Shown piece by piece: positions 23,246-39,386 of a stretch of DNA of 64,000 bases. The number at the start of each line of letters is the position of its first letter. Positions within the stretch are counted from its first letter, which is position 1. The notes beneath the pieces were generated by a model. It was not told the DNA's origin. It searched no databases and saw only the letters and a program-made list of their open reading frames with translations. The position numbers and the translations under genes were made by a program. Origin of the DNA: Chitinophagales bacterium (GTDB taxonomy: Bacteria; Bacteroidota; Bacteroidia; Chitinophagales; CAIOSU01); contig BPHB01000002.1 of the NCBI GenBank assembly GCA_026003335.1, positions 434,001 to 498,000 of the forward strand, given 5' to 3'.

Positions 23246-24130
23246 ATGGGATATTATTGCTTTCTCAACGGAAAAATCTCTTTGGCTGCCGAAGCGACAG
23301 TGCACATTTCAGACCTCGCATTGCTGCGTGGATACGGTGTTTTTGATTATTTACGAACCTATCATGGCATACCTTTCCGGCTGCCTGACTATCTGGAGCG
23401 CTTTCGGGCATCGGCTGAGTATATGCGCCTACCGCTTCGCTATTCTGACAGCCAGATCAGTGAAATTATTCAGGAACTGCTGATACAAAGTAGCGTAAAA
23501 GAAACCGCGGGTATCCGCCTGCTGCTTACCGGGGGACATTCGCCCGATTCTATGACGATAACAGAGCCGAATTTTGCTATCATCGTGGAAGCGCTGGGCG
23601 AGGGCGACCCCTTGCATTACCAGCACGGAGTTTCTCTCATTACTTATCCGTTCAAAAGAATTTTTCCGCTGGCCAAAACAACCAATTACATAGCAGCCAT
23701 AAAAATGCTGCCTGAGGTGAAAGAGAAAAAAGCTTTTGATATGCTCTATGTTTGGGACAATCACGTGCTGGAGCTTACGCGAAACAATTTCTTCCTGGTG
23801 CAGGGAAATACGGTGATAACCGCAAAAGACGATGTATTGCAGGGCATAACCCGTAAAGTCATTCTAGAACTGGCTGCCGGCAAGTTTAAAACAGAAGTCA
23901 GAGCGGTGCATTACAAGGAGCTGCAATCGGCAAGCGAGGCTTTTCTGTGTGGTTCGGCAAGAAGAATAATACCGGTTGTCAGCATAGACGGCAATCCTGT
24001 CGGAAACGGGCACCCGGGGGAAGTTACACGCTCCCTGATGACAATGTTTGATACGTACGTGGAAGAATACACCAGCGGCATGCAGGAAAACAATCCGGCA
24101 GGATATATCAGTAAACGTGATTTACAATAA
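23246..24130 (+). CDS. Class IV (branched-chain/D-amino acid type) PLP aminotransferase
   Basis: A 294-residue fold-type IV PLP enzyme. It opens YYCFLNGKISLAAEATVHIS and continues DLALLRGYGVFDYLRTY, with the family Arg/Gly pattern. The PLP Lys is in LAKTTNYIAAI, and the conserved ELTRNNFFLV loop positions Glu and Asn near PLP. The C-terminal part has DDVLQGITRKVILELA and EAFLCGSARRIIPV. The family holds branched-chain aminotransferases, D-amino acid aminotransferases and 4-amino-4-deoxychorismate lyases; the pattern here does not decide between them. ATG 23246 is chosen because the conserved N-terminus begins there. Its 3' end overlaps the convergent GT2 gene by 23 bp. Confidence 0.87.
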   Translation: MGYYCFLNGKISLAAEATVHISDLALLRGYGVFDYLRTYHGIPFRLPDYLERFRASAEYMRLPLRYSDSQISEIIQELLIQSSVKETAGIRLLLTGGHSPDSMTITEPNFAIIVEALGEGDPLHYQHGVSLITYPFKRIFPLAKTTNYIAAIKMLPEVKEKKAFDMLYVWDNHVLELTRNNFFLVQGNTVITAKDDVLQGITRKVILELAAGKFKTEVRAVHYKELQSASEAFLCGSARRIIPVVSIDGNPVGNGHPGEVTRSLMTMFDTYVEEYTSGMQENNPAGYISKRDLQ

Positions 24131-25013
24131 AAGGCGGGCGTTTCCGGGCAGCCTCCAGAGTGCGCCAGAGATATTCTGCAATAATGCTGAAATTGACCAT
24201 TAGTATCATGATGAAGAGGGCTATTGCCCAGTGAAAAAGATTGAACCAGTCGGTTACAAACAACAATATCGTTGAAATGAAAAAGCCCACAATAGACAGA
24301 ATGCCGGTGAAGGTAATAAGCCGTATGGGTAGATAGGAAAAAGCCACGAAGGAATCTATTACCAGTTTTAATCTTTTTGAAAAATTCCATTTTGACAATC
24401 CCTCTCTGCGTGCCCTGCGTTTGACGGGAATAGCCACATACGGATAACGCAGCCAGCTAATCAGATAAACCAGATTGGTATTGGTTTCATTCATCGCCAC
24501 CAGATGGTCTTTAATCTCCCGGTCAAAAAGAATTAAATCATAGCCGCCATCGGGTATATAGGGCATAGCATTTTTCATCATGAGATGATAAATCCTGGCA
24601 CTGATGCCATAAAAAAGATCTTCTGCCTCGCGCTCCACGCGATTACCTATTACCAGTTTATAGCCACGCTTCCAGTGGTCAATCATTTCGGGAATATGTT
24701 CGGGAGGATCCTGCAGATCAGCATGGAGCTGCACACAACAATCACCTGTGGCGTAATGGCAGCCAGCAAGCAAAGCATTGTAGGAACCAAAATTTCCGCT
24801 GAGATCTATAATTTTTACCTGGTCGGGAAGCTGTTGTTTGAATTGCTGCAGATAATGGAGGGTGTTATCCGTGGAGCCATCATTCACAAACACAAATTCA
24901 GTGGTGCATCCCTTGGCTTCAATTTTTTTCTTCAATTGCAGAAGCTCATTGAGGCTTTTGGGCAAAACAGCTGCTTCATTGTAACAGGGAATAATGATGG
25001 AGACTTTTTTCAT
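24108..25013 (-). CDS. GT2 glycosyltransferase of the ArnC/GtrB/DPM type with C-terminal membrane pair
   Basis: The 301-residue protein starts MKKVSIIIPCYNEAAVLPKS and has the GT-A signatures VFVNDGSTDNT and HADLQDPPEHIP (metal-binding DxD-like). Two hydrophobic helices near the C-terminus (about residues 225-285) are the topology of GtrB, ArnC and related polyprenyl-phosphate sugar transferases. Such enzymes load one sugar onto undecaprenyl or dolichyl phosphate at the cytoplasmic face. It follows the amidotransferase and aminotransferase genes on the same strand (26 bp gap), so the donor is plausibly the amino sugar they make. ATG 25013 begins the conserved strand; the frame extends six residues upstream. 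A lipid-linked amino sugar product is inferred. Confidence 0.87.
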   Translation of the reverse strand: MKKVSIIIPCYNEAAVLPKSLNELLQLKKKIEAKGCTTEFVFVNDGSTDNTLHYLQQFKQQLPDQVKIIDLSGNFGSYNALLAGCHYATGDCCVQLHADLQDPPEHIPEMIDHWKRGYKLVIGNRVEREAEDLFYGISARIYHLMMKNAMPYIPDGGYDLILFDREIKDHLVAMNETNTNLVYLISWLRYPYVAIPVKRRARREGLSKWNFSKRLKLVIDSFVAFSYLPIRLITFTGILSIVGFFISTILLFVTDWFNLFHWAIALFIMILMVNFSIIAEYLWRTLEAARKRPPFIVNHVY

Positions 25014-25039
25014 ACATCCTCCGCAAAGCAATATATTGG

Positions 25040-26260
25040 TTATTTACCACAATGGAAATATTTGTAGTAAGTAACCTTTGGAATTAAATTCAAATGACTC
25101 AACAGCTTTATCGGATAACGAAAGGCACGAATGTAACGATAGCTTGTAGGATAGTCATAAAAAGTCTTGGGAGGCAGCTGCATAAAGGAATCAAACTCCT
25201 CACGTGTAAGCCCCAGGCGTTTGATGCACAGCTCAATCACCTTAGGGTCTTCAATCTGATAGATACCATGAGCCCGCTGAAGAGCAACCTCGCGTGGCAT
25301 CTGTCCGCTCCTTACCAGGGCTGAGTCGCTATTCATGTTCAGGTCAATATTAAATTTCACCCGATGTACATATTTCACCAGGCTGTGGTAAAGGTCATCA
25401 TAGTAATGCGCCCCGGGATAGACCCAGCCCAGTTCACTTTTGATAATTTCCTCAGCTTCTTTGCGCCTGTAATCAATGTAATAAAAAGGTGTAAAGGTCT
25501 TTATTCCCCGGATAACTGAATAATAAAACAGCTCCCGGATACCGAGATTAAAACCAGCATCTTCTGGTTTCCAGGGACGTAAAGGCACAGAACCAAAAAT
25601 TTTGTGCACATTGCGCAGATAATCTCCGTCAAAATAAGACCAGGACAGAGGTTTGACTCCTTCGGTACGAAACGACTGCCCGATGAGGCAATATTTTATG
25701 TTCTCTTTGGCAGCTACACTATAGATGGAGCTGGCAATCCCGATATCAGTACCCAGATTAATGTCCGGTGTGCTTGCCTTAAGGAAATCAATTTTAAGGT
25801 CTTTGCCTTCCCGGTAATCAGAGGTAATGGTTCTTAACTCAACACCCAGCTTCTTTACGGCATTGACCATATTTTCTCCCGCTACCGGATTATCAAATCC
25901 GTCATTAAAGTGTACTGCCAGTGGACGCAGCTTCCAACGTCTTACCGTATTCCAGAGCAGAAAGGTGCTGTCACGCCCTCCGCTGATGCCTACCACACAA
26001 TCGTATTTCTTTCCTTTTCCTTCTTTTCGTATCCGGCTGAAGATACGCTCCAGAATTTCCTGGCCCTTCTTGCCGCTCGGAAACAAACGACAAAGAAAAT
26101 CATGGAGATGGCAGAAATTACAAACTCCGTTGGCATCAAATTCAATTCCGGGCACAGTAGTATCCTGCACACATCGGGTGCATACCTGCATCTTAATTTT
26201 TAATGGTTTCCCGTTTACCACTACGCAATCATCCGGTATTGTTTGTATCAACGTATTCAT
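25040..26260 (-). CDS. N-acetyl sugar amidotransferase (WbpG/PseA-type PP-loop enzyme)
   Basis: The 406-residue protein has an N-terminal pair of Cys motifs (CTRC at 27-30, CNFC at 47-50) and a PP-loop ATP pyrophosphatase motif SGGRDS (93-98), the layout of the N-acetyl sugar amidotransferase family. Members adenylate an N-acetyl group and convert it to an acetamidino group on nucleotide-activated sugars, for example in Pseudomonas O-antigen or in pseudaminic acid derivatives, generally using ammonia from a HisH-like glutaminase. No glutaminase gene is in this window. Its start overlaps the aminotransferase stop by four bases (ATGA), so the two are translationally coupled. The sugar substrate is unknown. 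Confidence 0.88.
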   Translation of the reverse strand: MNTLIQTIPDDCVVVNGKPLKIKMQVCTRCVQDTTVPGIEFDANGVCNFCHLHDFLCRLFPSGKKGQEILERIFSRIRKEGKGKKYDCVVGISGGRDSTFLLWNTVRRWKLRPLAVHFNDGFDNPVAGENMVNAVKKLGVELRTITSDYREGKDLKIDFLKASTPDINLGTDIGIASSIYSVAAKENIKYCLIGQSFRTEGVKPLSWSYFDGDYLRNVHKIFGSVPLRPWKPEDAGFNLGIRELFYYSVIRGIKTFTPFYYIDYRRKEAEEIIKSELGWVYPGAHYYDDLYHSLVKYVHRVKFNIDLNMNSDSALVRSGQMPREVALQRAHGIYQIEDPKVIELCIKRLGLTREEFDSFMQLPPKTFYDYPTSYRYIRAFRYPIKLLSHLNLIPKVTYYKYFHCGK

Positions 26261-27390
26261 GGTTTAATTCCAAAAAATGCATAAACACTGTCAATGATGT
26301 ATTGTCGTTCATGCTCTGAAAGACTGTAAAATAAAGGCAACCGGATAAGGCGGCTGCTTTCATACAGGGTATTGTGGTCATTTCCCCTGAACTCAGCATG
26401 CTGCTTACCATAATCACTTAAATGCAGTGGTGTGTAGTGAAACTGAGCCGTAACTCCTTTCTTCCGCAGAAAATCAATCATGCGGGTACGGTCGGCCGGG
26501 TTTTTTAATCGTATATGAAACAAATGTCCGTTATGCCGGCAATAGGGCGGTATAGAAGGCAAATCCAGCAACCCTCTCTCTGCCAGAGGTAGAAAAGCTT
26601 GATAGTAGCTCTCCCAGTGCGTGAGAAAAACCCGGTTAATGGAATCTATCTGTTGAAGCTGCGGATAAAGAAAAGCAGCAAGATATTCGGACAACGCATA
26701 ATTGGAGCCCAGTGCTTTCCACTCGTATTTATCCGTTTTGTTTTCAAAGAAATCCATCCTGTTGGTGCCGAATTCATAAGCTATTCTCAAGGATGCGTAA
26801 AAACGATTGTCATTGACAATGAGGCATCCTCCCTGACCGCAGGAAACATTTTTAAGCGAATCAAAACTGATAGCACTCAGATCGCCAAAGCTGCCAAGCA
26901 GTTTTTCTTTGTAAAAAGCGCCAATACCTTGCGCATTATCTTCCACCAGAACGAATCCGTATTTATTTTTCAATTCAATGATAGCATCATATTCACATGC
27001 TACTCCAGCATAGTTCATGGTAATAACCATTCGGGTTCTGGGGGTAATGGCCTGCTCAATGCTTTGCTCATCCAGGTTAAGTGTGTCTTTACGAATATCG
27101 GTAAAAATACATCGTGCTCCCCGTGCCACCACGGCATTGGCAATAGCCACAAATCCATAGGAAGGCAAAATAACCTCATCACCCGGTTTCAACTCTGCTA
27201 CCAGAGCTGAAAGCTCCAGCGCATGCGTACAGGATTTGGTAAGAAAAACCCGGGCGGGAAAGTAAAGTTTTTCCAAAATCGCTGCAGAGGCGGCATTATA
27301 TCTTTTTTCTTCATAACTAAAGTCAGGGGGGAAAAACTCTGCCGAAGGGCCAAGCCGCGTTATTTTACTGAACGGTATATGCCTATTCAT
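26257..27390 (-). CDS. DegT/DnrJ/EryC1/StrS sugar aminotransferase, WecE-like
   Basis: A 377-residue PLP-dependent sugar aminotransferase. The early segment IPFSKITRLG, then LTKSCTHALELSALV and DEVILPSYGFVAIANAVVAR, the PLP-phosphate and ring-contact residues in VEDNAQGIGAFY, and the Schiff-base Lys180 in SFDSLKNVSCGQGG are all present. The SFDSLKN context resembles WecE/RffA (dTDP-4-keto-6-deoxyglucose transaminase; SFHETKN), and ArnB is a related alternative. It should put an amino group on a 4-keto nucleotide sugar in the cytoplasm. It is the first gene of a minus-strand operon aminotransferase-amidotransferase-GT2. The nucleotide sugar 4,6-dehydratase that would supply it is not in the neighbourhood. 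Confidence 0.9.
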   Translation of the reverse strand: MNRHIPFSKITRLGPSAEFFPPDFSYEEKRYNAASAAILEKLYFPARVFLTKSCTHALELSALVAELKPGDEVILPSYGFVAIANAVVARGARCIFTDIRKDTLNLDEQSIEQAITPRTRMVITMNYAGVACEYDAIIELKNKYGFVLVEDNAQGIGAFYKEKLLGSFGDLSAISFDSLKNVSCGQGGCLIVNDNRFYASLRIAYEFGTNRMDFFENKTDKYEWKALGSNYALSEYLAAFLYPQLQQIDSINRVFLTHWESYYQAFLPLAERGLLDLPSIPPYCRHNGHLFHIRLKNPADRTRMIDFLRKKGVTAQFHYTPLHLSDYGKQHAEFRGNDHNTLYESSRLIRLPLFYSLSEHERQYIIDSVYAFFGIKP

Positions 27391-27611: not shown

Positions 27612-29204
27612 ATGAAAATTACCTTTATTGCACTGGGAACCGAACAGCTGGGCATCAGCCAGCTTTCTGCCATTGCGAAAAAAGCGGGACATCAGGTCCA
27701 CATCGCATTTAGCGCTCAACTGTTTCATGACCGTTTTAACCTGGAATTGCCCTCCATTGCACCCTTTTTTGATGATACCCATGAAGTGCTGGATGCTATC
27801 ATTCGGCAACAGCCCGATGTAATTGCTTTCGGAGCCCTCACTTCAACCTACCAGTGGGGTCTGAAGGTGGCTGACTATGCCAAGCAGATCAACCCGAATA
27901 TAAAGGTGATTTTTGGTGGGGTACATCCCTCGGCAGTTCCCGAGCTCGTGCTGAAGAAACCGCAGGTTGACTATGTGGTGGTGGGCGAAGGCGACCTCGC
28001 GTTTCCGAAAATACTGGAACAGATAGAAAAAGGCGATTTCAGCACTCCGATCATAAATACCCGCTATAAAGCTCCGGATGGGAAAATCATTCGGGGCATC
28101 CAGGGCGGCTTTATACAGGATCTTGACGCCCTGCCATTTTATGATAAAACCCTCTGGGAAGACCACGTTCGTATTGGTGACCTGTATCTTACTATGGCCT
28201 CTCGGGGATGCCCCTACCGTTGCACATTTTGCTTTAATAACTTTTTTGCTAAGCTCCCTGACAAAAAAGAGGGCAAATACGTGCGCCTCAGAAGCCCCGA
28301 ACATGTGATGGCAGAGCTGCTGTTTGCTAAAAAAAGATACAAACTCAGATGGATTGACTTTCAGGATGATGTATTTACTACCAGCAAAAAATGGCTTAAG
28401 GATTTTCTGGAGCGCTACAAAAAAGAAATAAAGCTGCCTTTTCAGATCCTGACTCATCCCCGCTACTTTGATGAGGATGTAGCCCGATGGCTCGCAGATG
28501 CCGGCTGCCAGTGGATACAGATGGGCGTACAGAGTATGGATGAAAGTTTCAAAAAAGATACCCTTCTGCGTTACGAAAAAAGTGAACACGTGAGCCAGGC
28601 CCTGCATCTGATGCATAAATATGGACTGAAAGCCAAGGTAGATCATATGTTTGGGCTACCCGATGAGCCCATTCAAGCTCAGCAAACTGCGCTGGACCTT
28701 TACCGGACACATTACCCAAAACGTATTCAAACATTCTGGACCTGCTACCTGCCGGGTACTGATATGATGAAGCAGGCCATTGAAACAGGCAAGCTCACTT
28801 CGGAACAGGCTGAGCGCATCAACGAAGGGATAGATTTTTATTTTTTCAGAAATACGGACAATATCAAGGAACCTGAGATGGTCAGGATGTACAAAGCCTA
28901 TGAGGTAATTTTCCGCATTATGCCTTCACTGCCGGATTTCCTTAAAACAAGATTGCAACCAGACCATGTAAAATGGTTGCCTGATTTTATGATAAGGCCA
29001 CTATCCATGGCTTCCGATATAGTAACCGGCTTTGCCCATGGTAACCCTGAATTCAGAGCTTACACCCTGCATAATTTGTATCATCTGAAAAGATTTTTCC
29101 TGTCTCGTTTAGGGCTAAAAGCAGGAAAAGCTACCAGCCTCCGGGAAGACATTATCCTTGAAGATGTACCCTATCTGGAGCCAGCCTTGCATCAAGGGTT
29201 GTAA
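27612..29204 (+). CDS. Cobalamin-binding-domain radical SAM protein (rSAM-A)
   Basis: The 530-residue protein has an N-terminal B12-binding-type Rossmann domain (about 1-145: VIAFGALTSTYQWG, VIFGGVHPSAVPEL, YVVVGEGDLAFPK). A radical SAM barrel follows with its [4Fe-4S] motif at Cys200/Cys204/Cys207 (SRGCPYRCTFC). The IQMGVQSMDE and FGLPDE segments belong to the AdoMet site. Class B radical SAM enzymes of this build methylate unactivated carbons or do ring-forming or rearranging chemistry (for example BchE, HpnP/HpnR, Fom3). The C-terminal 130 residues are specific and partly hydrophobic. It is divergent from the aminotransferase (221 bp between starts) and convergent with the transporter. It is not one of the tandem triplet: the post-barrel region differs. 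Confidence 0.9.
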   Translation: MKITFIALGTEQLGISQLSAIAKKAGHQVHIAFSAQLFHDRFNLELPSIAPFFDDTHEVLDAIIRQQPDVIAFGALTSTYQWGLKVADYAKQINPNIKVIFGGVHPSAVPELVLKKPQVDYVVVGEGDLAFPKILEQIEKGDFSTPIINTRYKAPDGKIIRGIQGGFIQDLDALPFYDKTLWEDHVRIGDLYLTMASRGCPYRCTFCFNNFFAKLPDKKEGKYVRLRSPEHVMAELLFAKKRYKLRWIDFQDDVFTTSKKWLKDFLERYKKEIKLPFQILTHPRYFDEDVARWLADAGCQWIQMGVQSMDESFKKDTLLRYEKSEHVSQALHLMHKYGLKAKVDHMFGLPDEPIQAQQTALDLYRTHYPKRIQTFWTCYLPGTDMMKQAIETGKLTSEQAERINEGIDFYFFRNTDNIKEPEMVRMYKAYEVIFRIMPSLPDFLKTRLQPDHVKWLPDFMIRPLSMASDIVTGFAHGNPEFRAYTLHNLYHLKRFFLSRLGLKAGKATSLREDIILEDVPYLEPALHQGL

Positions 29205-29236: not shown

Positions 29237-29629
29237 TCACTGTTTAAAAAAGAAATACAGGCCGGCAGCCATTACCAGCAAACCCAGGCACTTATTGGGG
29301 GTCAGCGGTTCATTTAAGAGGGCTATGCCAAACAGAAAAGTAAAAATGATATGCAGCGTAATGCTGACCGGATAGGCTGCAGTAAGTTCAAGCCTTGTTA
29401 AGGCCACATATCCAAACATCGGACCCATGCAAAAGGTAAGCACCGCTACCCACACCAGTGGATGCGCGGCAAATACTGTAATATACTCTTTCACCTGCTG
29501 AATGGATTCCAGATCCAGCTTACCTACCGCATTTGCCCTCCACTTAACCACATACAATGTGAAGCAATCAAGAAATGCTGCTATGAAAACAAAACCCCAG
29601 CCGAGCAGTAATTCTCTTTGCAAAACCAT
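29237..29629 (-). CDS. Small EmrE/ArnE-like drug-metabolite transporter protein
   Basis: A 130-residue protein with four predicted membrane helices and the conserved last half of the DMT/SMR fold (LTAAYPVSITLHIIFTFLFG, then IALLNEPLTPNKCLGLLVMA). Single-domain DMT proteins work as dimers; ArnE/ArnF flip undecaprenyl-phosphate-aminoarabinose and EmrE exports cations. In this neighbourhood, with a polyprenyl-sugar-type GT2 and a sugar aminotransferase, an ArnE-like flippase role is the more attractive inference. It is last in the minus-strand radical SAM operon, with five bases between the rSAM-B stop and its start being on the same transcript order inverted: the rSAM-B stop is at 29635 and this ATG at 29629. 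Function is not shown by sequence. Confidence 0.8.
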   Translation of the reverse strand: MVLQRELLLGWGFVFIAAFLDCFTLYVVKWRANAVGKLDLESIQQVKEYITVFAAHPLVWVAVLTFCMGPMFGYVALTRLELTAAYPVSITLHIIFTFLFGIALLNEPLTPNKCLGLLVMAAGLYFFFKQ

Positions 29630-29634
29630 TCTTT

Positions 29635-31167
29635 TCAGTTGGATGCCGTTTGAACGCGCTTTACCCCTGAACGGCTGCGTGTTAACAGCTCGGCAAGGGA
29701 AACTTCCAGCTTAGAGTTATATTGCTTTGTCACGATACCTTTTACCAGCCTGAAAAAACGAGCCGGCCGGAAAAGATAATTAGACCCGTAAAAAACCACT
29801 ATGCCTAGCACCTGATAAAACTGTAGCCATCTTACAGATATGTGGTCATTGTAAAAAGTGTTTCCGAAAAATTCATCTGTACGTACCATTTCGTAAAAGT
29901 AGCGGTCATCATTCATATTGATTTTTCCTTCCTGCTCAAGCCTGTTAAACAATGCGCTGCCCGGATAGGGCTGAAAGGCTGACGGTCCGATTTCATGCGC
30001 CCCTACCCAGCTGCAGCGGACTAGAAACCACATCGTTTTCCATATATCCAGATGCGTATCGTCCGGAAAACCAAATATCATATTGAGACGCAAATGCAGC
30101 TTTTCCTTATTTGCATATTTCATGCTTTGCAGCATGTTTTCCAGATTTACTTTTTTCTTAATGAGCTTCAGAATGCGTTTAGAGCCGGATTCCGGAGCAT
30201 AGGACAGATGGCGGCAACCGGATAAATAAAGATAACGGGCACACTCCCGATCAATGGCTTCTGAACGGGTGCCAGCCGGCAACTGCCAGGTAATATTTAG
30301 TTTTCGCTTTAAAATTTCTTTGGCAAATTCCACGACCCACTCTTTTTTAAGTATGGCCGTGAGATCAAAGAAGTCAAAATTGTCAATGCGGTATTTGTAA
30401 TGGAAATATTCAATTTCATCGGCCACATTCTGGGGAGAGCGTATGTAGTATCGGGTTCCCCACATCTGAGGGCTGGAACAGAATGTACAGCTGTAGGGGC
30501 ATCCGCGTGACGCCAGAAGCGGGAGTGAACGGTTTTTTACCACCCCAAAAACCATCTTCTTTTCATGATAGGTTTCCAGGGGAAACAGATCCCAGGCCGG
30601 CCAAGGGATGTCCTCTATTTGCCGTATGCGGGTTCTTTTTCCGGTGCGGCACAATGCACCATCTGGTTTTTTGTAAACAATACCCGGCACGGTTGAGAAA
30701 TCCCGCTTTTGCTCCCACGCATTTACCAGGTCTACCACCGTTTCTTCGCCCTCACCCAGCACGCACACATGTAGGTGTCTGGTTTGGCGAAGGGATATTT
30801 CCGGTGCTGCGGTAATATGTTCTCCTCCGGCTATTATTAATGTTTGCGGGAAATGATCACCCACGGCATCAATAAGTTTGCGATCCTGAATCCAATTCAT
30901 GGAGAACATGCAGCTGAAACCAATAACATCCGCATCGTGAGGCACTCTGGCGATAATCTGATTTACACTTAAGCCATTGGTCATATAATCGGCCTCAATA
31001 CGATTAAGCTGATCTGGAGCTTCAGCAACGCCATCCACTACCATCACTTCGTGGCCGGCCTCCCGCAGCGAGGCGGCTACCAAAGCCAAGCCCAGTGGTG
31101 CTGCAGGACGCATAGTAATGGCTCCATCAACCATAAAGCGGGGAGGACGTATCAGGCAGATTTTCAT
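29635..31167 (-). CDS. Cobalamin-binding-domain radical SAM protein, tandem paralogue (rSAM-B)
   Basis: The 510-residue protein has a B12-binding-type N-terminal domain (about 1-150: PLGLALVAASLREAGHEVMV, IGFSCMFSMNW, IAGGEHITAAPE, VLGEGEETVV). Its radical SAM cluster motif is at Cys223/Cys227/Cys230 (SRGCPYSCTFC), followed by SSPQMWGTRYY. Further blocks NFDFFDLTAI, WQLPAGTRSEAID and YAPESGSKRILKLIKKKV are nearly identical in the two paralogues upstream. The C-terminal FYGSNYLFRPARFFRLV is amphipathic and shared, suggesting membrane contact. It is third in an operon and its start overlaps the rSAM-C stop by four bases. The reaction is unknown; radical methylation of a lipid or glycan is the family-based guess. 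Confidence 0.9.
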   Translation of the reverse strand: MKICLIRPPRFMVDGAITMRPAAPLGLALVAASLREAGHEVMVVDGVAEAPDQLNRIEADYMTNGLSVNQIIARVPHDADVIGFSCMFSMNWIQDRKLIDAVGDHFPQTLIIAGGEHITAAPEISLRQTRHLHVCVLGEGEETVVDLVNAWEQKRDFSTVPGIVYKKPDGALCRTGKRTRIRQIEDIPWPAWDLFPLETYHEKKMVFGVVKNRSLPLLASRGCPYSCTFCSSPQMWGTRYYIRSPQNVADEIEYFHYKYRIDNFDFFDLTAILKKEWVVEFAKEILKRKLNITWQLPAGTRSEAIDRECARYLYLSGCRHLSYAPESGSKRILKLIKKKVNLENMLQSMKYANKEKLHLRLNMIFGFPDDTHLDIWKTMWFLVRCSWVGAHEIGPSAFQPYPGSALFNRLEQEGKINMNDDRYFYEMVRTDEFFGNTFYNDHISVRWLQFYQVLGIVVFYGSNYLFRPARFFRLVKGIVTKQYNSKLEVSLAELLTRSRSGVKRVQTASN

Positions 31168-32714
31168 TTTGTTTGCATGTTTATTTCTGTTAGCTGTACC
31201 TCAGCCTGTTTAGGCTTATATCGTAAACGTTTCAGTAAATCGCCAATGGCCATTTCGCTGCGGCTCTCGTATCGTTGGGTATAAATGTTGTAAAGCATCC
31301 GGAACAATCGGTGTGGCCGGAACAGAAAATTGCTGCCATAAAAAACCAGATATGCCAGAAACTGATAGCTCTTAAGCCATACAGGATGTATGTGCGCATT
31401 ATAAAACTTGTTGTAAAGGAATGAATCCACAAAAATCAGCTCGTAGAAATAAGCATCATCATTCAGGTTAATTTTGCCTTCTTCACATAGCCTGTTAAAC
31501 AGAGTGCTGCCCGGATAGGGCTGAAAAATAGAAGGAGCCATATCATTGGCGCCTACCCAACTGCATTGAATAAGAAATTTGAAGGTTTCCCAGATGTGTT
31601 TGTGTTTTTCATCCGGAAAGCCCATAATCATATTGAGCTTAATATTCATGCCCTCCTTGCTGGAATAGCGCATGGATTGCAGCATGTTGCGCAGTTTGAC
31701 TTTTTTCTTGATAATGCGAAGCATATCCGGTGATCCTGATTCCGGAGCATAGGTGATATTGCGGCAGCCGGATTTATACAGGTAAGCAGCAACTTCATCA
31801 TCAATGGCTTCCGAGCGGGTACCGGCAGGTATCTGCCAGGTCATTTGTATTCCACGCCTGATAATAGTCTGACAAAAATCAATAATCCATTGTTTCTGAA
31901 TGATAGCCGTCAGGTCAAAAAAGTCAAAATTGACAATGCCATATCGCTTTTGGAGATATTCAATTTCATCGGCTACTTTTTCCGGATCACGCATATAATA
32001 GCGTGTGCCCCACATTTGCGGACTGGAGCAAAAAGTACAGCTGAACGGACAGCCCCGCGTTGCCATGATTGGGACAGACCGGCCTCTGTCAACTCCATAC
32101 ACAATGCTATGTTCAAAATATTTTTCCATGGGGAATAGATCCCAGGCTGGATAAGGCAGCGTGTCTATCTCTCTGACACGTTTGCGAGGTGCCGTCCTTA
32201 TAGTGTCTTTACCGTTTCTGAACACAATGCCGGTGATAGAATGCAGGTCTCTGGTGTTTTCCAGAGCTTCCAGCAGTTCCACCACTGTTTCTTCCCCTTC
32301 ACCCAGCACACATACATCCAAGTGCCGGGTTTTCTGTATGGAAAATTCCGGAATGGCGGTTATGTGCTCGCCTCCGGCAATCAATGTAGCTGCAGGAAAA
32401 GCATCTCCCACCTTATCTATCAGCAGCCTGTCATGCACCCAGTTCATGGAAAACATGCAGCTGAAGCCTATGACATCGGCATCAGATGGGATGCGCTCCA
32501 GAATCTCTTCTATGGACAACCCGATGGTGACAAGCTCTTTATTAAACGGATTAATCTGCTCGGGACTTTCTGCTATGGTATCAATCACACAGACATCATG
32601 ACCTGCCTCCCGGATAGCTGCAGCCACATAAGCCAAACCGAGTGGTTGAGAAGATTTCATAAGGGTGGACAAAATTTTCATCACCTGAGGGGGGCGAATA
32701 AGGCAAACTTTCAT
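31164..32714 (-). CDS. Cobalamin-binding-domain radical SAM protein, tandem paralogue (rSAM-C)
   Basis: The 516-residue protein is the middle member of the triplet. B12-domain landmarks are PLGLAYVAAAIREAGHDVCV, IGFSCMFSMNW, IAGGEHITAIPE and VLGEGEETVV; the cluster cysteines are Cys222/Cys226/Cys229 (TRGCPFSCTFC). It shares SSPQMWGTRYY, NFDFFDLTAI, WQIPAGTRSEAID, YAPESGS and the C-terminal FYGSNFLFRPHRL with its neighbours. Compared with rSAM-B, the regions between blocks differ freely, so the duplication is old and each copy is under selection. It lies 71 bp after rSAM-D and overlaps rSAM-B by ATGA. Substrate and product are unknown. Confidence 0.9.
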   Translation of the reverse strand: MKVCLIRPPQVMKILSTLMKSSQPLGLAYVAAAIREAGHDVCVIDTIAESPEQINPFNKELVTIGLSIEEILERIPSDADVIGFSCMFSMNWVHDRLLIDKVGDAFPAATLIAGGEHITAIPEFSIQKTRHLDVCVLGEGEETVVELLEALENTRDLHSITGIVFRNGKDTIRTAPRKRVREIDTLPYPAWDLFPMEKYFEHSIVYGVDRGRSVPIMATRGCPFSCTFCSSPQMWGTRYYMRDPEKVADEIEYLQKRYGIVNFDFFDLTAIIQKQWIIDFCQTIIRRGIQMTWQIPAGTRSEAIDDEVAAYLYKSGCRNITYAPESGSPDMLRIIKKKVKLRNMLQSMRYSSKEGMNIKLNMIMGFPDEKHKHIWETFKFLIQCSWVGANDMAPSIFQPYPGSTLFNRLCEEGKINLNDDAYFYELIFVDSFLYNKFYNAHIHPVWLKSYQFLAYLVFYGSNFLFRPHRLFRMLYNIYTQRYESRSEMAIGDLLKRLRYKPKQAEVQLTEINMQTK

Positions 32715-32784: not shown

Positions 32785-34374
32785 TTAGGCCGCTCTCCTG
32801 CTTTGCGGTGGTTTGATTGATGCGGATATCATTTTAGCCAAATTTTTGGCTTGAGAGGCTTTTAATTCCAGATAGTGCCGGAGGTTTACTTCAAAACGGG
32901 ACTCAAATCGTTGAGTAGCCACATTCCACAGCACTTTGATCAGACGATGTGGCCGGAACAGAAAATTGCTGCCGTAAAAGAAAATGTAGTACAACACCAA
33001 ATAAAAGATATACCACTTGTGATTGATCTTCTTGTTGTACCACGGCATCCGATTATTGGTATCAATATAGACCATATTGAGATAGTAATCGTCATGCTCG
33101 GGATTAATAACTCCCTGCTCACTCAATTGTCTGAACAAAGCCGAACCGGGATAAGGTAGAAAAATAGATAAGGCTATAGTATTGGCTCCATACCAACTGG
33201 TCTGTACCAGGAACCAGCATGTTTTCCAGATGTCTTTATGCGTTTCACCCGGCAAACCGAGTATCATATTGAGCATCACATTCAGATTCTCGCGATGGGA
33301 ATCACGGATGGAACGGAGCATGTTGGTTATGGTTACTTTTTTCTTTATCTGACGCAACATGCGTATGGAACCTGTTTCCGGAGCATACACAATATTCCGG
33401 CATCCGGTTTTATGCAGGTAGGCGGCTACTTCACGGTCAATGGCCTCTGAGCGGGTACCGGCAGGTATCTGCCAGGTAATCTTCAGATTGTTTTCAAGAA
33501 TACATTGGCAGAATCGTATAATCCAATCCTTTTTGATGATGGCTGTAAGGTCATAAAAATCAAAATTGGTAATACCGAATTTCCGGTTTAATTCCATCAT
33601 TTCATCCACCACATCTTCCGGAGAGCGCATGTAGTAGCGTGTGCCCCACATCTGTGGGCTGGAGCAGAATGTACAGGAATAAGGGCAACCCCGCGTTGCC
33701 AGCATAGGCAAAGAAGGCTCGATGGTTGCGCTCCATACCACACGGTGTTCCTGATAGCTCTTTACGGGAAACAGATGCCAGGCCGGCCTTGGAATTTCCT
33801 CAAGCGATTTTATGCGCTCTTTTTTGGGTGTTGTGCGTACAGAATTTCCGCTTTTATAGGCAATACCGCTGACGGATTCAAGGGGGCTACCCTGAGCATA
33901 CGCATCCAGTAAATGCACGATGGTTTCTTCTCCTTCACCCAACACTACCACATCCAATGCGGATTGTTGCAAGCAGTAAGCATATGCTGCAGTAGCATGC
34001 TCGCCTCCGGCTACAAACAATGCCTTGGGGTAGTAAGCTCGCAGAAAGTTGATAAAGTACTTAACGCTGACCCAGTTTATGGCAAACATGCAGGAAAAGC
34101 CGATAACATCTACTTTCTCCGGCATTCGCTCCAGCAAGTCGTATTCATTCAGACCCCGAATAACAAGTGTTTCATGTTCCGGCAACGGTTTGCCAAAAGG
34201 CCTGAAAGGAGAGTATTTATGAGGAGCCTCACCCACACAATCTATTGCTGTAACATCATGCCCTGCGGCTTCCAGAGCACCGGCTATGTATGCAAGACCC
34301 AGCGGTGGAGAAGGCGACATGGTCACATGTCCTGCATTTTCCAATCTCGGTGGCTGAATAAGACATGCATACAT
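32785..34374 (-). CDS. Cobalamin-binding-domain radical SAM protein, tandem paralogue (rSAM-D)
   Basis: The 529-residue protein is the first of the triplet in transcription order. B12-domain landmarks are PLGLAYIAGALEAAGHDVTA, IGFSCMFAINW, VAGGEHATAA and VLGEGEETIV, and the cluster cysteines are Cys230/Cys234/Cys237 (TRGCPYSCTFC). Shared blocks are SSPQMWGTRYY, NFDFYDLTAI, WQIPAGTRSEAID, YAPETGS and FYGSNFLFRPHRL. It is slightly longer in the B12 domain (an insert around residues 55-75) and at the C-terminus, where a Ser/Lys/Arg-rich tail extends past the others. It lies 132 bp after the dioxygenase gene on the same strand, so it may start its own transcript. The reaction is unknown. Confidence 0.9.
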   Translation of the reverse strand: MYACLIQPPRLENAGHVTMSPSPPLGLAYIAGALEAAGHDVTAIDCVGEAPHKYSPFRPFGKPLPEHETLVIRGLNEYDLLERMPEKVDVIGFSCMFAINWVSVKYFINFLRAYYPKALFVAGGEHATAAYAYCLQQSALDVVVLGEGEETIVHLLDAYAQGSPLESVSGIAYKSGNSVRTTPKKERIKSLEEIPRPAWHLFPVKSYQEHRVVWSATIEPSLPMLATRGCPYSCTFCSSPQMWGTRYYMRSPEDVVDEMMELNRKFGITNFDFYDLTAIIKKDWIIRFCQCILENNLKITWQIPAGTRSEAIDREVAAYLHKTGCRNIVYAPETGSIRMLRQIKKKVTITNMLRSIRDSHRENLNVMLNMILGLPGETHKDIWKTCWFLVQTSWYGANTIALSIFLPYPGSALFRQLSEQGVINPEHDDYYLNMVYIDTNNRMPWYNKKINHKWYIFYLVLYYIFFYGSNFLFRPHRLIKVLWNVATQRFESRFEVNLRHYLELKASQAKNLAKMISASIKPPQSRRAA

Positions 34375-34506
34375 TTTTTATACTTTAGGTTTTTTAATCT
34401 TTATCTGATGGATGTACAATATAATAAAAAATAAAAAAACCAAAACCCAATTTTTATCAAAAGCTGCTTGCAATGTGAAAGAAATTTGGCTGAAGCATGC
34501 AGCAAA

Positions 34507-35325
34507 TCAGGCCGCTGAGTGACTCAAATCTTTATAAAATATTGCTTTCCTCAGCTTTTCCCCAATGCGATAAAAAATACCCATATGCCTGTTAACAGGG
34601 AGATAGATTCTCCACAGAACAGCAAAGAATAGCAGTAACATACGCAACGCCCATTCCGGAAGAGCGTTTATCAGGGGAATTCTGGCATCCATATATTTGA
34701 TCGTAAGGGCTCCAAGAGCCTTAGCGCAAACCCAATCGGCTTTGTGCGCAAATTGATCCTGAATCACATCAAAAACAAGGATAAATCTCCGCTCATCGGT
34801 GTTATTCCATGTTTCGTGAAAGTGTGCATCACTAAACATAAGCACCTTACCCTCCTGATGGCTTCGGGGTTCACCGTTTACCCGAATGCCGCAATCCATG
34901 TCTTTGCCGGGCACTCTCAGCCCGAGGTGGCAACGGATAATGGCGTTGGTTTCACCAATATGCGGTAGTACTCTGGAGCGGGGTTCAAGCACCGTGATGC
35001 CGGCAAAGGAAAGATTGGGTATTTGCCGCAGAATGGAAAAGGTTTTTGGAAACCTTAGACAGTTCTTATGATTTATCCAGCGAAAATTCATGAAATACAA
35101 ATTGCGCCACGCATCCGGAGAGGAGAGATAAGGCGGGTTGAGGTTTGTGGGCATCTCTTCTGTGCCATAAAGAAGGCCTCCTACTTCATTAATAATTTCC
35201 GGATATTTTACCTCCAGCTCCTTTACCCAAGGAAAATCCGCAGTGTTGAAGTAAGGAGGATGTTGTCCATTGTAGCTTTTCTCTTTTAGAAAATAATAAT
35301 CTGGCTCCAAAGCATATTCTTTCAT
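34507..35325 (-). CDS. Aspartyl/asparaginyl beta-hydroxylase-fold (LpxO-like) dioxygenase, copy 1
   Basis: The 272-residue protein has the AspH-type double-stranded beta-helix of Fe(II)/2-oxoglutarate dioxygenases. The core reads VLPHIGETN, IIRCHLGLRVPG, CGIRVNGEPR, EGKVLMFSD, then FHETWNN and ERRFILVFDV. The His of RCHLGL and the His of FHETWN match the two iron-ligand His of AspH, and the Arg residues of CGIRV and ERRF are candidates for 2-oxoglutarate contact. The family includes human AspH and the lipid A hydroxylase LpxO. The C-terminal segment (MLLLFFAVLWRIYLP) is hydrophobic, as in LpxO, suggesting a membrane-bound substrate. ATG 35325 is used because the longer frame begins TTG and this start aligns residue for residue with copy 2. 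Confidence 0.87.
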   Translation of the reverse strand: MKEYALEPDYYFLKEKSYNGQHPPYFNTADFPWVKELEVKYPEIINEVGGLLYGTEEMPTNLNPPYLSSPDAWRNLYFMNFRWINHKNCLRFPKTFSILRQIPNLSFAGITVLEPRSRVLPHIGETNAIIRCHLGLRVPGKDMDCGIRVNGEPRSHQEGKVLMFSDAHFHETWNNTDERRFILVFDVIQDQFAHKADWVCAKALGALTIKYMDARIPLINALPEWALRMLLLFFAVLWRIYLPVNRHMGIFYRIGEKLRKAIFYKDLSHSAA

Positions 35326-35502
35326 AAATGGCAAAGTACAATATCAACTTAACCTTTGAAAATAATAAAAACCAGTCGTTGAGATTGACCCTCTCTCGTG
35401 GTAATCTAAACTGCTAATTTATCTATTTCTACAGCACCATCAGATAACTGTAGTCATTCCCAGGATGATTTTCAATACTTTAAATTTACCCTTTTTCAGA
35501 CT

Positions 35503-36273
35503 ATGTTGAAGCATTACGGGGAGCCCCCTATTTTTTTACTTAAGGAAAATTTTTACGCGGGCAAGCATCCTTGTTTTTACAATCCGGAAACCTTTCCCTG
35601 GGTAAAAGAGGTGGAGCAGCAGTGGGAGGTCATCCGGGAAGAGATCATGGAATATCTCCGTGCAGGAAAAAATATTGAGGGGTTATCGAGCTACACGCCT
35701 CCGGATTTGTCCCAGCCGACCGCATGGAAAAATCTGTATTTCATGAATTTTCTCTGGATACAGTATAAAAATTGCCGAAAATTTCCAAAAACCTGGAATA
35801 TTCTCAGGAAAATACCCGGTGTCACGTTTGCGGCCATCGGCATTCTGGAGCCCCATTCCAGAATATTGCCCCACTATGGAGATACTAATATCAATCTGCG
35901 CTGTCATATGGGAATTCAAATTCCTGCCAACTATCCGGTTTGCGGAATTCAGGTAGGTAGTGAAGCCCGTGGGTGGGAAGAAGGTAAAGTGCTCATGTTC
36001 AGTGATTGCCACCGACATACTACCTGGAATGATTCAGACGAGCGCAGAATCATTGTAGGGTTTGATGTGATAAAAGAAGGGTATGAAACACAACGCACGT
36101 GGTTGTGCGCTCAGTTTCTGGGTGCCCAGACGCTGCGCTTTATTGACTCCTACATTCCCTTTCTGGAAAAAACTCCGCTGTCTGTTCTCAAGCCTTTGCA
36201 CAAGCTGTTTTCAGCACTCTGGTTTGTGTATCTCCCGATACAGGCACGCGTAACGAATTTTTTGCTTGCATAA
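35503..36273 (+). CDS. Aspartyl/asparaginyl beta-hydroxylase-fold (LpxO-like) dioxygenase, copy 2
   Basis: A 256-residue paralogue of the divergent copy, sharing the N-terminal pattern (EP..FLLKENFYAGKHP against EP..YFLKEKSYNGQHP) and FPKTW/FPKTF. Iron ligands are conserved: His135 in RCHMGI and His172 in CHRHTTWN. The Arg of CGIRV in copy 1 is Gln150 here (CGIQV), a possible difference at the 2-oxoglutarate or substrate site; the other Arg (ERRIIVGFDV) is kept. A hydrophobic C-terminal stretch (LFSALWFVYLP) is again present. The two genes are divergent with about 177 bp between starts and each heads an arm containing radical SAM genes. An oxygen-dependent hydroxylation of a membrane lipid or peptide is inferred. 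Confidence 0.87.
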   Translation: MLKHYGEPPIFLLKENFYAGKHPCFYNPETFPWVKEVEQQWEVIREEIMEYLRAGKNIEGLSSYTPPDLSQPTAWKNLYFMNFLWIQYKNCRKFPKTWNILRKIPGVTFAAIGILEPHSRILPHYGDTNINLRCHMGIQIPANYPVCGIQVGSEARGWEEGKVLMFSDCHRHTTWNDSDERRIIVGFDVIKEGYETQRTWLCAQFLGAQTLRFIDSYIPFLEKTPLSVLKPLHKLFSALWFVYLPIQARVTNFLLA

Positions 36274-36370
36274 ATTGCCAAACGGCAAGGGTATTTCCCT
36301 GCCAGAGAATAACAGTATGAAAATAATCTTATTTTACCTTAGTTTGCAGCTATTGAATCCACTGATGGCA

Positions 36371-37750
36371 ATGAAAATACTGTTTCTCAATCTTCCGTCA
36401 GAAATACTGGTTGTGCGCAGATATATGTGTTCATCCTTTGCTGAAACTTTTTTATTTCCTCCACACGACCTGGTAGCTCTGGCTGGGGCAGCTCGCAGCA
36501 TTCCCGGTGTTCAGGTATTCTTTTTGGATGCTGTAGCGGAGCGGAAAAATCTCCATGCAGTTATCCATCAAATCCAGAGTTGTGGACCTGATATCGTAGT
36601 GTCTATAATAAGCTTTGAGCTTTATGAACAGGATGTGCTGACCGTGAAAAAGCTAAAAGAACGTTTTCCTGAAAAAACATTTGTCCTCTTTGGGCATTAT
36701 CCTACACATTTCCCGGAAGATACCTTACACTATTCGGGAGCCGATATGATTATGCTGGGAGAGCCTGATGAAATATTGCTGAATGTGCTTTCCCGTTTGC
36801 AAAAAGGAGAACATCCCGACAATGTGGATGGGGTAGCCACGCGGAAGGAATTAAATATGATACGCGTAAACGGCAATAAAATGCGCGTACCTCATCCTGA
36901 AGCACTGCCGCTTCCGGCCTACGATTTGCTTGTATCAGAACTTTATTCTGAGCCGTTCATGCCTCGTCCTTTTGGTCTTATACAAACTGCCCGTGGATGC
37001 CCCTATCAGTGCAACTATTGCGTGCATTCCTTCGGTACCAAGCTTACTGCTCTCAGCCCGGAAAAGGTTTTTGAACATATTCTCCTGCTGAAGCGCCTGC
37101 ATGGCATCCGGGCACTGCGGTTTATTGATGATACTTTCACCGTGAATCCGGCAAGGGTGATTGAAATCTGCAGATTGATTATTGAAAACAAGATAAACAT
37201 TCAATGGACCTGTTTGGCCCGTGCCGATACGCTGAATGAAGAAATGCTTGGCTGGATGAAACGCGCTGGATGTGTCAGACTCAACATCGGCATGGAATCA
37301 GGCAGCCAGCACATATTGGACTTCCTGAACAAAGGCATAAGGGTGGAAAAGGCGCTTGATCAGTTGAAAAATGTCAGAAAAACGGGTATGGAAATGATGG
37401 GTTTTTTTCTGACTGGCGTACCGGGAGAAACCGAAAAGGATATTCAGGAAAGTGTGGATTTTGCTCACGATGCTGGCTTTCACTATGTGGTGGTTGATAC
37501 CTTAAAGGTCTATCCGGGAACCCCGTTATTCAACAAGGTAAGTGAGTTAGTAGACTTTTCCTTACTGCCCTACCGCAATGAATTTAAAGACCCTGCTTTT
37601 GTTCGCATGGCTCGCAACCACCGTAGCTTGTTCTACCGAAAATTTTATTTCTCTTTACGCTACCTGCACAGAACCCCTATAAAAAATATTTTGAGGCCTA
37701 GACAAATCAAACACGGAATACAATATGTAAAATCCAAGGTTTCTGCCTGA
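36371..37750 (+). CDS. Cobalamin-binding-domain radical SAM protein (rSAM-E)
   Basis: The 459-residue protein has an N-terminal B12-binding-type domain (KILFLNLPSEILVVRRYMCS, PHDLVALAGAARSIPGVQVF, VLFGHYPTHFPED, MLGEPDEILLNV). Its radical SAM motif is at Cys210/Cys214/Cys217 (ARGCPYQCNYC). LRFIDDTFTVNPARV, WTCLARADTLNEEML, RLNIGMESGSQHIL and FFLTGVPGETEKDI are standard for the superfamily. It is not part of the tandem triplet: the QMWGTRYY and GTRSEAID blocks are absent. The start is uncertain. Met codons also exist at 36266 (overlapping the dioxygenase stop), 36317 and 36365; 36371 matches the family's MKILFLN start. It is followed by the GT-C-like gene. Confidence 0.88.
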   Translation: MKILFLNLPSEILVVRRYMCSSFAETFLFPPHDLVALAGAARSIPGVQVFFLDAVAERKNLHAVIHQIQSCGPDIVVSIISFELYEQDVLTVKKLKERFPEKTFVLFGHYPTHFPEDTLHYSGADMIMLGEPDEILLNVLSRLQKGEHPDNVDGVATRKELNMIRVNGNKMRVPHPEALPLPAYDLLVSELYSEPFMPRPFGLIQTARGCPYQCNYCVHSFGTKLTALSPEKVFEHILLLKRLHGIRALRFIDDTFTVNPARVIEICRLIIENKINIQWTCLARADTLNEEMLGWMKRAGCVRLNIGMESGSQHILDFLNKGIRVEKALDQLKNVRKTGMEMMGFFLTGVPGETEKDIQESVDFAHDAGFHYVVVDTLKVYPGTPLFNKVSELVDFSLLPYRNEFKDPAFVRMARNHRSLFYRKFYFSLRYLHRTPIKNILRPRQIKHGIQYVKSKVSA

Positions 37751-37793
37751 GTCCGCCCCTGTTTAGTAGTATCACCGGATGTTTATGCGCCTT

Positions 37794-39386
37794 ATGAAAA
37801 AAAAATATCTGTCATTCCTTATTCCCCTCCTTCTTTGCTTTCTGCTTTTTGGCATTTTAGGATCTTTCTATTCGGATTATGATACCCTCATCTATTTAAT
37901 AGGGTATGGAATTTATACCGACTACCCTTTTCATGATTTTATAATTGATACCTATTTCCTTATCGGACCATATGTGGCCTTCATAAATTCCAGGTTTCCA
38001 GAATTGCAATTTCTTGACATATTCTCCCTTACAATGAACATAGCTGCAATTACCGTTTTAGGCAGCATAGTATTTAAAAAGCTGATAGTACGGCAATACC
38101 AGCCGTTATTTTACTTTACATATTTTCTGATTTTCATAATACTCTTCAGTGACCATATCCTTAATCTTAACACCACCCGGATTGTTTTTCTGGGTATGGC
38201 TGGAGTGTTGATGCTTGATTATTTCGTTCGTAGTAGGTCATGGAGGCACTATTTCGCCTTTTGCAGCTCCATCATTTTACTATCATTGTTACGCCTGGAC
38301 GCAGCCCTGCTGAGCGCAGTGATTTACACACTGTTTATCCTCACGCTGGGAACATTCAGATCATATAGAATAATACCGCTTATCATTACTCTATTTGTAT
38401 TTGCTTTGTTCCACTTCTTGGTTGTCAACTTTACCAGTGAAGCGAAACAAATGTTTTATTATAGCGAACTTGATATGTTTGACAGGAATAATATTGCTTA
38501 TAGCAGGCTATCCGAACAGGATGCTTTGGTAATATCCTTACTGCGATATCAAATTTTTGACACTTATCATTTCTCTCGTGAGTTCGTCAATAAAGTTATT
38601 GATTACAACATAAATCCTTTTTTAAACGGGATTTTACCAAGAAACTTTATATCCACTTTTAAAGAATCGCTCAGTGATTATCGCAATGTTATGCCTCTGC
38701 TCATTACAGCAGTATTATTGAGCATCATTTACTTGGGTACTTCATGCACCCGTCTAAAACATAAGCTCTTCGTTGGATTTTATTTATTTCTTCCATTGCT
38801 GATCAACCTTTACATCATCACACCTACCCGATTTCTAGCCCCCTATTACACCTTGGTTATTTTAATTACCTTAATTAACATCAAGGGGGAAATCCTGGAG
38901 AACTATAAATTTATAATTCTGTTGATAGTGACTTTTGGGCTCAGCCTCAGATCTCTCATGTTATTACATCTTTTTTATACTCAACATGTATCACAGAGCA
39001 CATTGTTTCAGAACAAACTGGATGCCCTGGAGGCTGTCCATCAGGGGCAACCGATTATACTGGAGCGCTTTGCGCCTGAAAACGATTTCCCCAATCCGCT
39101 GGATAAGATGAAAAGAAGAAATATGGCATTCCTAAATATGTTTTATCTGGCATCCTTTGAATGTTATCAATCCAGATGGAAAAGGCTCTGCCAGTGTAAT
39201 CCGCTTTCACTTCGGGAAAAAATGAGTTATATCGCCAACCAGCAGGTGCCCTTTGTTTCGGTTGATTTCATTTTACCTGTTTATGAAAAATATTTTTGTG
39301 AGATGTATGGACTTACCATCCGATTTACTAAGCAACAGAATCTCATGAAGAGGTGGAATGTTTACAAAGTTGAACTTTCCCATTAA
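37794..39386 (+). CDS. Polytopic membrane protein, probable GT-C-fold glycosyltransferase
   Basis: A 530-residue protein with about ten to twelve membrane helices. After the first helix comes a loop SDYDTLIYLIGYGIYTDYPF followed by HDF, very like the PMT_2/GT39/GT83 pattern in which acidic residues are followed by a 'G.lPYrDf' segment in the first periplasmic loop. GT-C enzymes such as ArnT take the sugar from polyprenyl phosphate on the periplasmic side. The C-terminal 130 residues are soluble and contain CYQSRWKRLCQCNPL. Family membership is a pattern-level call with no characterised relative recognised. Base composition is clearly more AT-rich than the neighbours, as is the 600 bp that follow, suggesting later acquisition. 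An alternative ATG is at 37779. Confidence 0.6.
   Translation: MKKKYLSFLIPLLLCFLLFGILGSFYSDYDTLIYLIGYGIYTDYPFHDFIIDTYFLIGPYVAFINSRFPELQFLDIFSLTMNIAAITVLGSIVFKKLIVRQYQPLFYFTYFLIFIILFSDHILNLNTTRIVFLGMAGVLMLDYFVRSRSWRHYFAFCSSIILLSLLRLDAALLSAVIYTLFILTLGTFRSYRIIPLIITLFVFALFHFLVVNFTSEAKQMFYYSELDMFDRNNIAYSRLSEQDALVISLLRYQIFDTYHFSREFVNKVIDYNINPFLNGILPRNFISTFKESLSDYRNVMPLLITAVLLSIIYLGTSCTRLKHKLFVGFYLFLPLLINLYIITPTRFLAPYYTLVILITLINIKGEILENYKFIILLIVTFGLSLRSLMLLHLFYTQHVSQSTLFQNKLDALEAVHQGQPIILERFAPENDFPNPLDKMKRRNMAFLNMFYLASFECYQSRWKRLCQCNPLSLREKMSYIANQQVPFVSVDFILPVYEKYFCEMYGLTIRFTKQQNLMKRWNVYKVELSH

Follow-up and report, generated by a model that had tools for sequence, protein, structure and literature searches.

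A conserved Chitinophagales gene neighbourhood of radical SAM enzymes, AspH-fold dioxygenases and amino-sugar genes, probably involved in making an unusual surface glycan

Which product is made by a locus that combines five radical S-adenosylmethionine (SAM) enzymes, two AspH-fold dioxygenases, and genes for amino sugars and their polyprenyl-linked forms? This question is raised by positions 24108 to 39386 of a 64,000-nucleotide stretch (the window) of contig BPHB01000002.1 from a Chitinophagales bacterium (genome G000). The first-pass annotation of the window had proposed that the locus makes "a novel modified lipid, glycolipid or surface glycan". Open reading frames (ORFs) were called mechanically, and those of the locus were scanned with Pfam and NCBIfam profiles, using the equivalog cutoffs as criteria for family membership. 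All the genes claimed for the locus were present with intact reading frames. They encode five radical SAM proteins, two AspH-fold dioxygenases, a WbuX-type amidotransferase, a WecE-type aminotransferase, an ArnC/GtrB-like family 2 glycosyltransferase (GT2), a small SMR-like protein, and an unclassified protein with eight transmembrane (TM) segments. We report here that this gene association is conserved in relatives, and that the locus is probably part of a pathway making and tailoring an unusual surface glycan via polyprenyl-linked sugars.

Homologues were searched in 120 genomes of relatives, mostly metagenome-assembled, and Fisher tests were performed without the window's own genome. Homologues of the three tandem radical SAM proteins (rSAM-T1 to rSAM-T3) were found in 7 of the 120 relatives, all seven of which also encoded AspH homologues (1.3e-6, for genomes that are not independent and without correction for shared ancestry; 8 of 8 if the window's own genome is counted). 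WbuX orthologues were detected in 21 genomes and a fourth radical SAM protein, rSAM-A, in 16, with 15 genomes in common (own genome included in each count); WbuX accompanied rSAM-A in 14 of 15 cases if the own genome was excluded (Fisher test, 8e-13). In a phylum-wide sample of 396 genomes, only that of the window contained an rSAM-T match at E<=1e-90. Most of the co-occurring genes were located on one contig within tens of kb, and this physical linkage supports the association independently of the co-occurrence statistics. AspH, rSAM-T, and rSAM-A were found in a single locus in G057, G077, G085, G091, and G109. WbuX was separated from AspH by 2 kb (G001), 8 kb (G038), 15 kb (G057), or 16 kb (G050), and from rSAM-A by 2–3 kb in both G002 and G006. 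Overall, AspH, radical SAM, and WbuX genes occurred together in about ten Chitinophagales genomes, including members of other families of the order, often in loci of 30–100 kb. The neighbourhood had been predicted to be accidental if the radical SAM triplet and the dioxygenases were never found next to amino-sugar genes elsewhere; linkage was instead found repeatedly, across genera and families. These results, together with the 1:1 conservation of the triplet described below, support a conserved and functional association of these genes.

The radical SAM domain PF04055 was detected by Pfam in five ORFs, at 27612 (plus strand), 29635, 31164, and 32785 (minus strand), and 36266 (plus strand). 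All five had been described as cobalamin-domain enzymes. The B12-binding domain PF02310 was significant in four of them, namely rSAM-A (27612–29204), rSAM-T3 (29635–31167), rSAM-T2 (31164–32714), and rSAM-T1 (32785–34374). The fifth, rSAM-B (36365–37750; PF04055, 88.7 bits), is only likely to contain such a domain, as NCBIfam models of B12-radical SAM enzymes also align across its N-terminus but Pfam gave no B12 match. The TTG start of this ORF at 36266 is probably too early since the in-frame ATG at 36365 fits the homologues better. All five carry the CxxxCxxC motif, the cysteines of which were invariant in the alignments of rSAM-A and rSAM-T. Scores were well below the NCBIfam cutoffs for all curated subfamilies considered (HpnJ, BchE, PhpK, ladderane, and RiPP methyltransferases), and membership in the HpnJ, BchE, and ladderane families was rejected on this basis. 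The best NCBIfam match of rSAM-B, an HpnJ/BchE-like protein, was HpnJ; homologues with 40–52% identity were present in the loci of relatives.

The rSAM-T proteins are 49–59% identical to one another and have hydrophobic C-terminal stretches. Each of them pairs 1:1 with one copy of G057, which belongs to another family (support of 1.0); rSAM-T2 is 72% identical to its G057 counterpart, and the T2 and T3 genes are adjacent and overlapping in both genomes. The triplet, conserved in its orthology and order, is therefore old and has been kept. An AlphaFold2 model of rSAM-T2 (pLDDT of 82) matched AprD4 and the B12-radical SAM enzymes MgmA, TsrM, TokK, CysS, and OxsB, with TM-scores to the query of 0.55–0.65 but only 16–20% identity, and no curated family cutoff was reached. 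MgmA and TsrM ranked first by E-value, and the highest TM-scores were obtained with AprD4 (0.65/0.73), the substrate of which is paromamine. AprD4 does not use B12, so that methylation and deoxygenation are both possible reactions for rSAM-T. The rSAM-A homologues of the relatives are 53–68% identical to the window protein. Outside Bacteroidota, homologues with 38–57% identity were found in Omnitrophota (loci L071, L072, and L077) and Myxococcota (L075, L078, and L079), which we read as cross-phylum transfer. Genes for GT-C-like membrane proteins directly follow rSAM-A in the three Omnitrophota loci and in Chitinophagales (L066, L076, G077, and G067). In L071 and L077, rSAM-A is doubled and adjoins the GT-C-like genes.

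The two dioxygenases, AspH1 (34507–35334, minus strand; 123 bits) and AspH2 (35503–36273, plus strand; 135 bits), match PF05118 and have hydrophobic C-terminal stretches. Residues including H135, H172, and R182, which we take to be catalytic by comparison with human AspH, were invariant across ten homologues. AspH2 matched an AspH structure of the Protein Data Bank (PDB; E of 6e-20), and its homologues were found in 21 genomes of the relatives search. For both proteins, the best NCBIfam match was the lipid hydroxylase OlsC. The OlsC and LpxO scores (122.7 and 68.5 bits for one protein, 114.7 and 59.8 bits for the other) were below the equivalog cutoffs of 450 and 500, and membership in these families was rejected. 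OlsC and LpxO share the PF05118 fold and the catalytic residues with the AspH proteins of the window, but the AspH genes considered here lie in glycan loci, as pairs or triplets. A second type of AspH-rich locus, devoid of radical SAM genes, was observed in G028 (contig C321, L055) and G116 (contig C492, L056); it contains three AspH, three Cupin_8, sulfotransferase, GT2, and GNAT genes, with KAS III in G116.

The amino-sugar genes were assigned with more specificity. The WbuX-type protein (25040–26260, minus strand) has a Cys-rich N-terminus and exceeded the TIGR03573 cutoff (210.2 versus 203.2 bits). Its PP-loop SGGRDS, of the SGGxDS type, was invariant in 19 sequences (S93, G94, G95, R96, D97, and S98). 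The DegT/WecE-type sugar-nucleotide 4-aminotransferase (26257–27390, minus strand) exceeded the cutoff of PRK11706 (418.3 versus 375), but not that of the stricter TIGR02379 (397.4 versus 434.85), and matched PDB entry 6blg (2e-101). The PRK11706, TIGR03573, and PF05118 matches bear out the first-pass assignments of the aminotransferase, the N-acetyl sugar amidotransferase, and the AspH-fold dioxygenases. A DegT homologue adjoins WbuX in G038 and is located 13 kb from it in G050.

No specific cutoff was reached by the proteins proposed to act on lipid-linked sugars. The GT2, a putative polyprenyl-phosphate sugar transferase (24108–25031, minus strand; PF00535), had been annotated as ArnC/GtrB-type. 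The nearest PDB entries agree with this (Sll0501, 1e-42; ArnC, 3e-36), but the PgfS and ArnC scores (166.7 and 131.7 bits) were below the equivalog cutoffs. Its orthologue adjoins DUF6056 near rSAM-T in G001 (contig C8) and lies near WbuX in G118. The ArnE/EmrE-like transporter and the GT-C-like protein of the first-pass annotation are both present, with less secure identities. The former (29237–29629, minus strand) is an SMR/EamA-like candidate flippase with sub-cutoff matches (EamA, 23.3 bits; ArnF, 25.9 versus 99 bits). The latter (37779–39386, plus strand) is a candidate GT-C glycosyltransferase with eight predicted TM segments and a soluble C-terminal part. It had no Pfam or NCBIfam match, and its AlphaFold2 model, of low confidence (pLDDT of 42), was not used. 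Asp33, in the region of the first loop, is shared with DUF6056 and PMT_2-like proteins. A homologue with 30% identity is encoded by a 12-kb contig of G072, together with WbuX, a nitrilase, a carbamoyltransferase, GT2s, and PhyH.

No glutaminase had been seen in the neighbourhood. In 18 of 20 relatives, however, WbuX belongs to a cassette that also comprises a carbamoyltransferase and a CN_hydrolase of the nitrilase fold. The genome of the window encodes its CN_hydrolase alone, at C1:701662 and unlinked to WbuX; this protein shares 67% identity with the cassette copy of G001 and has a readable nitrilase triad (E43, K112, and C145). A carbamoyltransferase (56% identity) is encoded at C1:1127121. 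In glutamine-dependent NAD synthetase, the PP-loop domain is supplied by a domain of the nitrilase fold. By analogy, the unlinked CN_hydrolase is a candidate nitrilase-type glutaminase for the supply of ammonia to WbuX. G038 and G014 encode a protein combining a glutamine-amidotransferase domain with a part similar to WbuX.

The content of the larger loci, which bears on the nature of the product, was read by gene clustering and Pfam scans of recurring families; gene labels are best-HMM assignments, those of GDSL and SPASM being loose where scores are low. The 30–100 kb loci of relatives contain Wzm/Wzt-type ABC exporters, small GT2s, GFO/IDH/MocA dehydrogenases, UbiA, DXD glycosyltransferases, DUF6056 and PMT_2-type membrane proteins, carbamoyltransferase, SGNH/GDSL proteins, and twitch/SPASM radical SAM proteins. 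They also encode up to 12 PhyH dioxygenases, Cupin_8, and WelO5-like proteins; within 80 kb, G050 encodes about 20 oxygenases, and an 80-kb stretch of G067 encodes about 16, along with 14 radical SAM proteins. The two AspH proteins are the only oxygenases of this set in the window locus. The HxG pattern of chlorinases, a motif used in the discussion of a halogenase (PMC12171316), was present as HCG in 8 of 11 WelO5-like proteins; the PhyH members were mostly HxD, hydroxylase-like. Like the carrier-free halogenases of the WelO5 type, these proteins match PF22814 (2e-49), but their genes sit in glycan loci, and none is present in the window. The HCG proteins of the glycan loci of G057, G077, G085, G091, G109, G050, and L076 are possible chlorinases of sugars or lipid-linked sugars. 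DUF1501 and DUF1800 genes were observed beside the dioxygenase-rich loci of G057, G077, G085, G091, L066, and L076. The WbuX/radical SAM loci of G001, G067, and G038 run directly into a block of twitch/SPASM radical SAM and GDSL genes. A similar block, with seven SPASM-type radical SAM and three GDSL genes, stands apart in the window's genome (C1:1068–1091 kb; L058 and L059), and we therefore read the window locus as one of several separated pieces. The initial description of the gene set was largely correct, but the set represents only a minor, local portion of a far larger family of loci.

From the observed enzyme families, their co-location, and their intact catalytic motifs, we infer a pathway with the following order of steps, substrates, and chemistry. 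The WecE-type enzyme would aminate a 4-keto-6-deoxy sugar nucleotide. WbuX, receiving ammonia from the unlinked nitrilase-type glutaminase, would form either an amidine from an N-acyl group or an amide from a carboxylate. Loading of the sugar onto undecaprenyl phosphate would be the task of the ArnC-like GT2. rSAM-T1 to rSAM-T3, rSAM-A, and rSAM-B would alter unactivated carbons by C-methylation or AprD4-like deoxygenation, and the two AspH-fold enzymes would hydroxylate. The lipid-linked sugar may be flipped by the SMR-like protein and transferred by the GT-C-like one. Among the possible product types (polysaccharide, lipopolysaccharide, glycoprotein, or glycolipid), we favour a glycan, to which the gene neighbours in other genomes point. 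Of the three products initially proposed, the surface glycan is tentatively favoured over a lipid or glycolipid by the assembly and export genes of the relatives.

Several observations weigh against this pathway. The window locus contains no Wzx, Wzy, or Wzm/Wzt genes, DegT is unlinked to WbuX in most relatives, no SMR counterpart was seen in the other loci compared, and the GT-C fold of the 8-TM protein was not confirmed. The curated family nearest to the AspH pair is a lipid hydroxylase, and KAS III and fatty-acid desaturase genes in some of the relatives' loci would also fit a lipid part. The latter two points would be explained if the locus modified a membrane lipid (an ornithine- or sulfono-type lipid, lipid A, or a hopanoid), AspH 2-hydroxylating acyl chains, the B12-radical SAM enzymes alkylating or cross-linking them, and the amino sugar forming the head group. 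The HpnJ match of rSAM-B and the hydrophobic C-terminal stretches of AspH and rSAM-T are also consistent with this scheme, which we nonetheless consider unlikely: all scores are far below the cutoffs of lipid enzymes (450, 500, and 577), the window locus has no acyltransferase or hopanoid gene, and the genes found alongside in different genera serve the export and assembly of glycans. Little weight can be given to protein glycosylation, in which the GT-C-like protein would move the lipid-linked sugar onto secreted proteins. Among the recurrent neighbours is a PMT_2-type TPR protein, encoded directly after rSAM-A in G067 and in Omnitrophota, but the Wzm/Wzt exporters of many loci point to lipid-linked polymers, and the fold of the candidate GT-C was not confirmed. 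A diffusible small natural product resembling an aminoglycoside or a nucleoside is improbable. The aminotransferase, the AprD4-like rSAM-T fold, and the NodU-like carbamoyltransferase and WelO5-like halogenase genes of relatives would suit such a product; no NRPS, PKS, or small-molecule scaffold gene was recognised, and the constant company is formed by polyprenyl GT2, GT-C-like, and polysaccharide ABC exporter genes. Chance proximity of unrelated genes, as might be suggested by their distribution over both strands and several transcription units and by the shuffling of gene order between genomes, is contradicted by the repeated co-location across genera and families, with the 1:1 conserved triplet and the gene overlaps also opposing it.

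The preferred surface-glycan pathway may, tentatively, be placed in a wider frame. Uncultured Chitinophagales could make a widespread, undescribed class of surface glycans based on polyprenyl-linked amino or amidino sugars, which B12-radical SAM, AspH, PhyH, and halogenase enzymes would rewrite into C-alkylated, hyper-hydroxylated, and in some species chlorinated sugars; the window's genome would harbour a reduced and dispersed version, with rSAM-A shared with Omnitrophota and Myxococcota. If so, known glycan chemistry would come to include the editing of sugar C–H bonds by radical enzymes and oxygenases, which on such a scale has to our knowledge so far been seen in antibiotic pathways, and carrier-free halogenases would perhaps act on sugars or lipid-linked sugars. 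The loci would also offer several families of orthologous enzymes that can be cloned and tested.

Gene spacing suggests the following transcription units: DegT-WbuX-GT2 (minus strand, 27390 to 24108; overlap of 4 nt, then gap of 8 nt), rSAM-T1-T2-T3-SMR (minus strand, 34374 to 29237; T2/T3 overlap of 4 nt, T3-SMR gap of 5 nt), and AspH2-rSAM-B-8-TM protein (plus strand, 35503 to 39386), rSAM-A (plus) and AspH1 (minus) each standing alone. The GC content of the locus core (0.43–0.46) is slightly below that of the flanks (0.45–0.48), and that of the last gene is lower (0.37–0.41). Recent insertion of foreign DNA is argued against by this near-flank core GC content, by the absence of tRNA genes in the 64-kb window, and by the direct repeats >31 nt, which are the radical SAM paralogues themselves. 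No empty site can be defined for an island since the relatives yielded only distant matches to the right flank (OmpA, 39987) and none to the left flank (Aminotran_4, 23207). Directly past the right border, positions 39987–42011 encode a PorE/CHU_0125-like OmpA protein with PD40 repeats. A 460-residue membrane protein without family (47248–48630) weakly resembles a 13-TM protein of the G001 glycan locus (21%, 9e-7). Ebo-type metabolite-traffic genes (13268–17924) encode an EboA family protein (17016–17924), a TatD-like protein (16065–16979), a UbiA-like EboC (15096–16049; 368.6 versus a cutoff of 250), and a protein resembling phosphonoacetate hydrolase or alkaline phosphatase (13268–14683).

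No description of these loci or of this enzyme combination was found in the literature searched, the coverage of which was partial. In agreement with the first-pass annotation, the locus is not that of a recognisable RiPP, as no cutoff for RiPP radical SAM enzymes was reached, ORFs under 90–100 residues not having been screened systematically. Nor is it simply an Arn (L-Ara4N) pathway. A sugar-nucleotide aminotransferase, an ArnC-like GT2, and a small SMR-type transporter are found in both, and the 8-TM protein is a candidate counterpart of the GT-C transferase ArnT, but here the aminotransferase is of the WecE rather than the ArnB type, and an amidotransferase, five radical SAM enzymes, and two dioxygenases are added. 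Membership was rejected since no protein reached an Arn equivalog cutoff (ArnB, PRK11658, 165.2 versus 631, PRK11706 scoring best; ArnC, PRK10714, cutoff of 529; ArnF, as above) and no ArnA formyltransferase/decarboxylase was detected among the locus ORFs scanned. The proposed Arn-like logic (aminate, load, flip, transfer) works alike in outline but is not conserved as a block since no SMR-like protein was detected outside the window and the GT-C candidate recurred in a single other locus. The WbpG/WbuX acetamidino-sugar systems, such as that of Pseudomonas aeruginosa O5, likewise combine a TIGR03573 amidotransferase with a DegT aminotransferase; their MviM/GFO_IDH component has counterparts only in relatives. 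The WbuX gene described in Sphingomonas lies in a polysaccharide cluster, with HisF and HisH as partners (PMC11340318). HisH and HisF had no match among the ORFs of the window locus, no genome-wide search having been made; the cassette of the relatives instead pairs WbuX with CN_hydrolase and carbamoyltransferase, both unlinked in the window's genome. If confirmed, a nitrilase in place of HisH/HisF would be a new type of ammonia supply for sugar amidotransferases.

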